Shown here: piece by piece, positions 9,783-31,735 of the stretch
Position numbering within the stretch: the stretch's first letter is position 1
Layout of the letters: each line of letters opens with the position of its first letter
From: Candidatus Peregrinibacteria bacterium
GTDB lineage: Bacteria; Patescibacteriota; Gracilibacteria; UBA1369; UM-FILTER-53-11
Length of the DNA stretch: 47,441 bases
Assembly (NCBI GenBank): GCA_016220145.1
Contig: JACRID010000050.1
Span: 1 to 47,441, forward strand
Direction: 5' to 3'
Notes under the pieces: model-generated
Told to the model about the DNA's origin: nothing
Databases searched by the model: none
The model's input: only the letters and a program-made list of their open reading frames with translations
Made by a program: the position numbers and the translations under genes

Positions 9783-9951
9783 AAGGCAAGTGGGGTCATG
9801 TATTTTTTAAGACCATGTTTGGACTGCTGGGCCGCAGGATCATGTTTTGCGAAGCAAAATGCCGAGACTGCCGTCGAGGCAATCCTGCGGCCGTTGCGCG
9901 AGCGCAACAAGCAGGCCTATGGTATTAAAAATACATGACCTCACTTGCCTT
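9783..9951 (+). repeat. Multi-branched palindromic element, copy 1 (candidate structured RNA or mobile element)
   Basis: Outer stem 9783-9807/9927-9951 (24/25 paired, one G-T); core GACCATGTTTGGACTGCTGGGCCGCAGGATCATG...ATCCTGCGGCCGT shared with copy 2 at 28277-28461; three internal hairpins. Confidence 0.85.
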
Positions 9952-19348: not shown

Positions 19349-19464
19349 TGTCATCCTGAACTGGCGCGAAAGCGTCATCCTGAACTTGTTTCAGGATTTG
19401 GAAAAAGAAAATCGTAAGTAGATGCTGAAATAAATTCAGCATGACGAACCAAGTTCAGAATGAC
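19349..19464. repeat. Dispersed palindromic repeat cluster (TGTCATCCTGAA... type)
   Basis: GTCATCCTGAACT occurs twice; hairpins TCCTGAACTTGTTTCAGGA and TGCTGAAATAAATTCAGCA; related to 30783-30808. Confidence 0.75.
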
Positions 19465-27888: not shown

Positions 27889-28275
27889 ATGCGAGGTTTC
27901 AACAAGGTTATGCTCTACGGCAACCTGACTTCGGATCCGGAGGTCATACCAACAAAGACCGGTAAAACGTTTACCACGTTTTCACTCGCCACAAACCGCG
28001 ATTGGAAAAACAAAGACGGAGAAGTGGTTTCCGCAACGGATTTTCACAAGGTTGTATCATTCGGGAAATTGGGGGAAATAGTCGGGAAATATCTAAAAAA
28101 GGGAAGACCTGTTTTGGTTTGCGGGCGCTTAAACAACAGATCTTATGTAAATAAAGAAGGACAAAAGCGCTATGTGACGGAAGTTGTAATGGATGATTTT
28201 AATTTCTTATCTCGCGGCAAAAAGCTGAAAAAACAGGTGCCGACGGAAGAATCTGCGGAAGTGGCGGTTGCCTAA
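27889..28275 (+). CDS. ssb: Single-stranded DNA-binding protein
   Basis: FNKVMLYGNLTSDPEVIPTKTGKTFTTFSLATNRDWKNKDG...KGRPVLVCGRLNNRSYVNKEGQKRYVTEVV. Start at MRGFNKV. Confidence 0.93.
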   Translation: MRGFNKVMLYGNLTSDPEVIPTKTGKTFTTFSLATNRDWKNKDGEVVSATDFHKVVSFGKLGEIVGKYLKKGRPVLVCGRLNNRSYVNKEGQKRYVTEVVMDDFNFLSRGKKLKKQVPTEESAEVAVA

Positions 28276-28276
28276 A

Positions 28277-28461
28277 GCAAGGACGGAGGATGTATTTTTG
28301 AGACCATTTTAGACTGCTGGGCCGCTGGATCATGCTGACCCCGCATCGCGGGGGAGGTGGCGCAGATACTTCTGCGCCAATCCAGCGGCCGTCGCGAGGG
28401 CGTACATGTTAGACCGAGTGACATGCAGGCCATGGTCGAAAAAATACGCAGACGTCCTTGC
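28277..28461 (+). repeat. Multi-branched palindromic element, copy 2
   Basis: Outer stem GCAAGGACG...GTATTTTT/AAAAATAC...CGTCCTTGC; shared core GACCAT..GACTGCTGGGCCGCTGGATCATG...ATCCAGCGGCCGT...GCAGGCC-ATGGTC; three internal hairpins differing in sequence from copy 1. Confidence 0.85.
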
Positions 28462-30782: not shown

Positions 30783-30808
30783 TAGATCCTGAAACAAGTT
30801 CAGGATGA
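30783..30808. repeat. Dispersed palindromic repeat (CCTGAAACAAGTTCAGG)
   Basis: TAGATCCTGAAACAAGTTCAGGATGA, related to 19349-19464; between convergent genes. Confidence 0.7.
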
Positions 30809-31735
30809 AATTTTCTGCGGTATGTTTTTTTGTCCTCGCAAGAATTCTTCGATGCTCATTTCGCGTTTGGATTCCGGCTGTACCTTGGTTGGCATTACCG
30901 CTCCTTTTTGAGTTCCTATAGCCAAAATCTTGTTTTCAAATACGGCAACTTCCCCCGAGCTATTTTTTTGTTCACCTACGGTGGCGGAAGTGATGATAAT
31001 ACGCTTGTTGTTCCATAAAATAGAACACTTTGGCCAAGTGCTGTAAGCCTTAATTTTTCTGATCATTTGCTCGGCAGTTTCATTGTAAGGATCCAGCATG
31101 CCATCTGTTTTTTCTATTCTTCTGCAATAAGTAGCTTCCTTTGGATTTTGCTCAATACTCTTACCGGTCTTAACGAAAGTTTCAATCACATTCCCCGTAT
31201 GGAGGGCCGCCAGTTTAGACAATTTATGGGACAAACTATCGTAATTATCACCGTTATCTATATCTAATTCTTTTTTATCAATAATTGGGCCGGCATCCAT
31301 TTTTCCGGTCATTTTAATCCAGGTTACGCCGGTTACTTTGTCGCCGTTCAAAAGACCGGCCTGAATGGGGGATGCCCCGCGATATTTTGGGAGCAAAGAA
31401 CCGTGTATATTTATTGATCCGCGAGTTGGTATTTCAAGTAAATCTTTTGGAATGATTTCCCCATATGAAACGACCAATAATATATCCGGCTTTATTTGTG
31501 CAATTTTTTGCTTCAAGCCACTGATTGAATGAGGCTGTTGAATAAATAATTTGTTCATTAGTGCCGTCTGTTTTATTGGTGATGGCATCAGGTTAAGATT
31601 GCGCTTCGCCGGCTTATCTTCGCTTGTAACTACAAACTGTATTTCTATCTTATTATTTGCGGAAAGCGCCTCCAGAATAGGGGAGCCAAATTCACCGGTT
31701 CCGATAAAAATCACCTTTATTTTTTGCATATACAT
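30800..31735 (-). CDS. fmt: Methionyl-tRNA formyltransferase
   Basis: KVIFIGTGEFGSPILEAL; SYGEIIPKDLLEIPTRGSINIHGSLLPKYRGASPIQAGLLNGDKVTGVTWIKM. Start at MYMQKIKV. Confidence 0.94.
   Translation of the reverse strand: MYMQKIKVIFIGTGEFGSPILEALSANNKIEIQFVVTSEDKPAKRNLNLMPSPIKQTALMNKLFIQQPHSISGLKQKIAQIKPDILLVVSYGEIIPKDLLEIPTRGSINIHGSLLPKYRGASPIQAGLLNGDKVTGVTWIKMTGKMDAGPIIDKKELDIDNGDNYDSLSHKLSKLAALHTGNVIETFVKTGKSIEQNPKEATYCRRIEKTDGMLDPYNETAEQMIRKIKAYSTWPKCSILWNNKRIIITSATVGEQKNSSGEVAVFENKILAIGTQKGAVMPTKVQPESKREMSIEEFLRGQKNIPQKISS

Follow-up and report, generated by a model that had tools for sequence, protein, structure and literature searches.

The window, the whole 47,441-nt stretch of a Candidatus Peregrinibacteria contig, carries a palindromic element directly behind the ssb gene (copy 2) and a related copy between pyk and ruvC (copy 1). 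The ssb stop codon TAA occupies positions 28273-28275, and a single base (28276) separates it from the left arm of copy 2. All pairings named in a sequence-only reading of this DNA were recovered: the outer stem of GCAAGGACG and CGTCCTTGC, a second pairing of GTATTTTT (28292-28299) with AAAAATAC (ending at 28447), and the hairpins GACCCCGC-ATC-GCGGGG and TGGCGCAGA-TACT-TCTGCGCCA (Table 1). Folded as RNA, the + strand of copy 2 reached -103.1 kcal/mol, against -68.2 +/- 4.4 for dinucleotide shuffles (z -7.9, 0/200). The outer stem is real in copy 2 but is not a feature of the family, since every copy has an outer arm of its own; judged by analogy with other copies, the left arm GCAAGGACG is probably flank sequence or an inverted copy of it.

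Table 1. Window coordinates of the two element copies, the parts of copy 2 and the adjacent ssb gene
Feature	Position	Strand	Remarks
Copy 1	9783..9951	+	Between pyk (-) and ruvC (-); hpB tip deleted
ssb	27889..28275	+	Neighbour outside the element; stop abuts copy 2
Copy 2, whole palindromic element	28277..28461	+	Includes copy-specific outer arms
Left outer arm	28277..28285	+	GCAAGGACG; copy-specific
Basal stem P1, 5' side	28292..28307	+	GTATTTTTGAGACCAT; tandem G.A; family-conserved element starts here
P2, 5' side	28312..28317	+	GACTGC
hpA, 5' side	28320..28334	+	GGCCGCTGGATCATG; conserved CATG
hp1	28337..28353	+	Inserted hairpin, long form only
hp2	28358..28379	+	Inserted hairpin, long form only
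hpA, 3' side	28380..28390	+	ATCCAGCGGCC
hpB	28391..28422	+	Tandem G.A; invariant loop GTACATGTTA at 28402-28411
P2, 3' side	28425..28430	+	GCAGGC
Basal stem P1, 3' side	28432..28447	+	ATGGTCGAAAAAATAC; family-conserved element ends here
Right outer arm	28453..28461	+	CGTCCTTGC; copy-specific

Copy 1 has 25-bp arms (AAGGCAAGTGGGGTCATGTATTTTT / AAAAATACATGACCTCACTTGCCTT), the right one extending to the pyk stop codon, and its fold gave a z of -11.0 against dinucleotide shuffles. The two copies align with a mean column identity of 77%, and their core lies on the + strand in both, with ssb on + and pyk on -, as first read. The conserved core attributed to both copies is indeed shared, except that the third hairpin of copy 1 has no tip and the otherwise invariant loop GTACATGTTA is missing with it. 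This tip was apparently lost by deletion between direct repeats GCGAGCG; the identical deletion occurs in copy L018, and two copies of the host genome are without the hpB loop.

Conserved fold and distribution of the family

The conserved family unit measures about 75-160 nt, and its core-sense strand adopts a branched hairpin fold made up, in all forms, of the basal stem P1, a further stem, P2, and the neighbouring hairpins hpA and hpB. Beyond P1 the outer stem differs from copy to copy, with a median matched arm length of 29 bp including P1. The tip of hpA is CATG or CACG in most forms. In hpB, the closing C-G pair and the loop GTACAYGYTA were invariant in 63 distinct copies, gathered with a loop pattern permitting limited variation only, except for a small group with GAACATGTTC; L075 shows CAAG in this loop. 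At the other pairs of the hpB stem every Watson-Crick form occurs (540 Watson-Crick pairs vs 7 G.U), and covariation was higher than in nearly all or all of 500 shuffles. Thirteen full copies from the host genome (G000) could be aligned over a core of 132-162 nt, and their consensus fold contains 46 pairs, 23 of them with compensatory double changes, values reached by none of 500 column-shuffled controls; slid controls were paired at 35-48%, compared with 95.6% observed.

Tandem G.A mismatches were found in P1, hpA, and hpB of many copies. The mismatches in P1 are strand-specific (G.T 34 vs A.C 6; A.G 51 vs C.T 1, as descriptive counts over related copies), and the core-sense strand thus seems to be the one that folds, either as RNA or as single-stranded DNA. 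Kissing of the two CATG loops was suggested by L080, in which both loops are changed to ACGT, and was dropped because L129, L087, and L093, inspected by eye, show CACG in hpA and retain CATG in hpB.

The host genome has 1.28 Mb in 102 contigs, and a BLAST search with copy 2 returned 29 places in it, about 20 of which are clear copies or fragments. Several of these copies are interrupted by contig ends, as expected of near-identical repeats. When the 89 genomes of the same order (Ca. Peregrinibacteria) were searched with a covariance model built from the host copies (R1), 15 proved to carry relatives, among them a shorter form of 103-122 nt lacking both inserted hairpins. With a second model (R2), based on the short forms, matches were obtained in 26 of 356 genomes of the class; these all belong to the same order (26/89), and none of the 267 genomes of the other orders matched. 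A phylum-wide draw of 381 genomes likewise gave matches in same-order genomes alone. Across 85,462 species genomes, the exact hpB hairpin pattern matched seven stretches, each carrying the label Ca. Peregrinibacteria or Gracilibacteria; a search of viral contigs with two patterns gave none. The genomes compared were drafts, and copy number, which spans 0 to at least 13 between related genomes, is given as a lower bound, since no more than 12-13 candidates were scored in each genome. No Rfam family fell on the window copies or on eleven related loci at gathering or permissive thresholds, and no such element was described for Peregrinibacteria or CPR in the literature searched. Copy 2 belongs to a dispersed, non-coding, lineage-specific family of mobile palindromic elements; if this is right, the family had not been described before and is restricted to a single order of Patescibacteria.

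Empty sites and genomic placement

Both window sites have empty counterparts in genomes of the same family. The site between ssb and a glycosyltransferase gene is empty in G001, G003, and G005, and that between pyk and ruvC in G001, G004, and G005, where the two genes are joined by about 20 nt; gene order is kept at both. Among four genomes of genus g33 (G037, G065, G066, and G067), the flanks of eight copies were searched first and further copies were then compared with 998 kb of G066; about 10 sites were found to carry the element in one species but not in another, with intact flanks. The two orientations in the window had suggested that the element is not locked to its neighbour, and this was borne out at a single site that holds copies in opposite orientations in the sister species G065 and G066 (L087 vs L137). 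The presence/absence comparison at the ssb and pyk sites and in g33 likewise favours the mobility supposed from the sequence. Mobility of the element is well supported by the empty orthologous sites with clean presence or absence, the placement at gene 3' ends in either orientation and the rarity of U-tracts.

In G067, copy L277 is an element nested within an older copy and has arms of its own. The ssb site of G002 holds a different palindromic insert, with arms GCTTTTGGCTGCCG/CGGCAGCCAAAAGC, and a second repeat, GAAGCCGAGCCGGTTCGACGAAGGCAATC, lies inside this insert (L040) and beside two element copies (L069 and L089).

The copies show a marked association with gene ends. A gene 3' end was scored where a reading frame of 80 codons or more runs toward the palindrome and stops between -60 and +45 nt from it. 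Such an end was present beside 42 of 48 copies, compared with 25% of random windows, and gene 3' ends on both sides accompanied 27 of 48, compared with 2%; the random windows include coding sequence and thus overstate the intergenic preference, although the closeness to stop codons is independent of this. Copies occur in either orientation relative to the neighbouring gene. A TTTT run within 8 nt after the palindrome was found in 5 of 48 copies, which makes a canonical intrinsic terminator unlikely, and a terminator scan returned none at either window copy. These results agree with the early view that the element is not a simple terminator.

A conserved structured RNA kept by the host, either a small RNA or an element of mRNA 3' ends, is an alternative reading, with differences between sites reflecting loss and covariation reflecting RNA function. 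Strong covariation, strand specificity in the core sense, G.U wobbles and tandem G.A all speak for such an RNA, as does the copy between sufB and sufD (L071 in G084 and L072 in G006), whose core is identical in 109 of 109 positions between two species with about 91% identity in the neighbouring coding sequences. It accounts poorly, however, for related genomes that carry anything between no copy and at least 13, for non-orthologous insertions with clean empty sites, for the lack of a fixed orientation to the neighbour, which can differ even within a single site, and for hpB stems almost devoid of G.U, and it is considered unlikely. The unchanged sufB-sufD core nevertheless hints, from sequence comparison, that the repeat may serve the host and not be purely selfish, and some copies may have been adapted in this way.

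Inverted flank copies and the proposed insertion process

Several empty sites hold a single arm, the other arm of the occupied site being an inverted copy of the native flank. The best case is L269 (G065 vs G066), in which the copied stretch is 17 nt of the gene 3' end, stop codon included. In the empty site the gene end ...AAGAGGAGAAGAAGTAA (codons and stop) is followed by TTACACC; the occupied site reads ...AAGAGGAGAAGAAGTAA-unit-TTACTTCTTCTCCTCTT|ACACTCC, where TTACTTCTTCTCCTCTT repeats 17 nt of the gene end as their reverse complement. Every position of the left arm agrees with the empty site (17/17), the right arm is absent from it, and the junction lies in a shared TT; the insertion thus carries an inverted copy and no direct target duplication. 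The sites L234/L271, L230, and L240 also have a single native arm, in agreement with L269. At L093, for which three empty orthologues were compared, the native arm is on the opposite side. In the G006/G084 copy, the 3' end of sufB forms the arm, and the inverted copy extends to the start of sufD. L236, L274, and L229 showed no clear native arm. The arms of the orthologous copies L234 and L271 have diverged between species and are still matched within each, which requires selection or hairpin-templated correction.

These arms bear on the idea that the unit inserts in the loop of pre-existing terminator hairpins, whose stems would survive as its outer arms. Some mobile elements are known to target terminators; the copies lie at the 3' ends of genes, in most cases between stop codons that converge, and in G002 pyk is followed by a short GC hairpin. 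The empty sites at L269, L093, L240, L230, and L234 have one arm only and no palindrome, however, the arms extend into coding sequence, stop codons included, and U-tracts are rare, which leaves this explanation very unlikely.

A mechanism in which the unit itself generates the palindrome appears to be the best account of the family as a whole, in both its observed and its conjectured parts, and is considered moderately probable. The element would be non-autonomous and moved in trans by an inferred enzyme that recognises the single strand in its folded state; the invariant hpB loop GTACAYGYTA is the likeliest recognition feature. The unit would settle directly 3' of stop codons. On insertion, the folded single-stranded unit would join the 3' end of one host strand and fold back, and its own 3' end would be extended by copying about 15-60 nt of the host strand. 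The extended strand would then rejoin the other side at a microhomology, leaving the unit between host sequence and an inverted copy of that sequence instead of a target-site duplication. Today's long stems would be such fold-back arms, kept matched later by selection or hairpin-templated correction. The junction structure was observed directly; fold-back copying is suggested by it and finds direct support in the sequences of several sites. That this represents a new kind of insertion, in which a folded single strand, DNA or RNA, primes synthesis on a host strand from its own folded-back 3' end and builds a long host-derived palindrome at each event, is a more tentative proposal, which may well prove wrong. 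If the fold-back account is right, its insertion signature is an inverted copy of the target flank, unlike the direct duplications of usual transposons, and it would account for the long perfect hairpins found where gene ends converge in these genomes. It also advises caution, as very perfect and seemingly covarying hairpins may come from copying and not from selection on RNA.

Arm composition was examined in 48 copies. Read toward the centre, the arms contain 30% G, compared with 17% at G066 gene ends, and G exceeds C in 43 of 43, where about 69% would be expected. Purine-rich arms were considered as a target signal and rejected, as G066 gene 3' ends are already 83% purine-rich, with G>C in 69%; gene-end composition thus explains part of the bias, and some of the remaining G excess may reflect the base composition of other genomes.

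The mobilising gene was not found. Dependence on a Y1 transposase or a reverse transcriptase was rejected, since neither tracks the presence of the element in the 89 same-order genomes: Y1 (RAYT) transposases (PF01797) occur in 7 of 26 element-bearing and 19 of 63 other genomes of the order, and reverse transcriptases (PF00078) in 7 of 26 and 22 of 63. The 26 carriers and 63 apparent non-carriers would make the hunt for the enzyme tractable.

Relation to known repeats and systems

The family resembles REP/REPIN sequences and MITEs in kind, yet several of their defining features are absent or equivocal in it. REP/REPIN sequences, associated with RAYT (Y1) transposases, are also short palindromic, extragenic, dispersed, non-autonomous and hairpin-forming, and are amplified within genomes (PMC3116915, PMC2817692, PMC3733652). 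REPs, however, are 20-40 bp long and have a GTAG or CGTC tag (PMC3733652), whereas the Peregrinibacteria element is branched, has 75-160 nt and another loop, occurs in a few to about 20 copies, and has no Y1 transposase association. Rfam structured RNAs share the covarying branched fold, but no family matches the window copies or the eleven related loci. In yeast, DNA breaks give rise to inverted duplications of about 5-34 bp by fold-back synthesis using microhomology (PMC11724301). These templated inverted insertions resemble the arms of the element but have no central mobile unit and involve other organisms and enzymes; they make the fold-back step plausible and show nothing for these bacteria.

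Prokaryotic MITEs, including ERIC, RUP, and RPE, are likewise small, non-coding, mobile and intergenic, with inverted repeats (PMC10969869, PMC2229807), and the element is a short, non-coding, dispersed mobile repeat as well. It differs in that its outer inverted repeats change with each copy, one arm being copied from the host flank, and in that the clean site L269 shows no direct duplication of its target; L008 has a possible 7-bp direct repeat. The ends of the family are formed by P1, shared within subfamilies, and longer terminal inverted repeats (TIRs) occur only in some copies of G000 and G062.

An ordinary MITE, in which an IS transposase mobilises a TIR transposon, the element forming its interior and the palindromes nearest the core being by-products, would fit these longer forms. 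In G000, copies lie in a 283-bp unit with 22-nt TIRs GGCTCATGCGATTTTTGGTTTG (L003; in the others the ends fall at contig breaks), G062 units have 24-nt TIRs, and the possible direct repeat at L008 reads GTCGGCA. Most copies, including both in the window, show no such TIR, and L269 lacks the direct duplication; GGCTCATGCGATTTTTGGTTTG was seen only with element copies, and no autonomous IS carrying it was found in the G000 assembly, a 93% complete draft. This reading is therefore regarded as improbable for the family, even more so than a host RNA, although ordinary TIR transposition may move the part of it that forms the larger units with 22-24-nt terminal inverted repeats in G000 and G062. The G000 units bounded by GGCTCATGCGATTTTTGGTTTG are the recently active form and one cause of assembly breaks; the near-identical copies L003, L005, L007, L009, L010, and L014-L016 are of this type, nearly all at contig ends. 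In the closed 1.0-Mb genome G062, seven copies (L189-L195), all on the + strand, lie in longer units, most of which have TIR-like ends GGTGCAATCTTATTCTGTTTGGG.

The window also holds a separate dispersed palindrome, ATCCTGAACTTGTTTCAGGAT, at positions 19368-19397 and 30786-30815, in inverted orientation and after gene ends. It was found at 20 places in the host genome with at most two mismatches.
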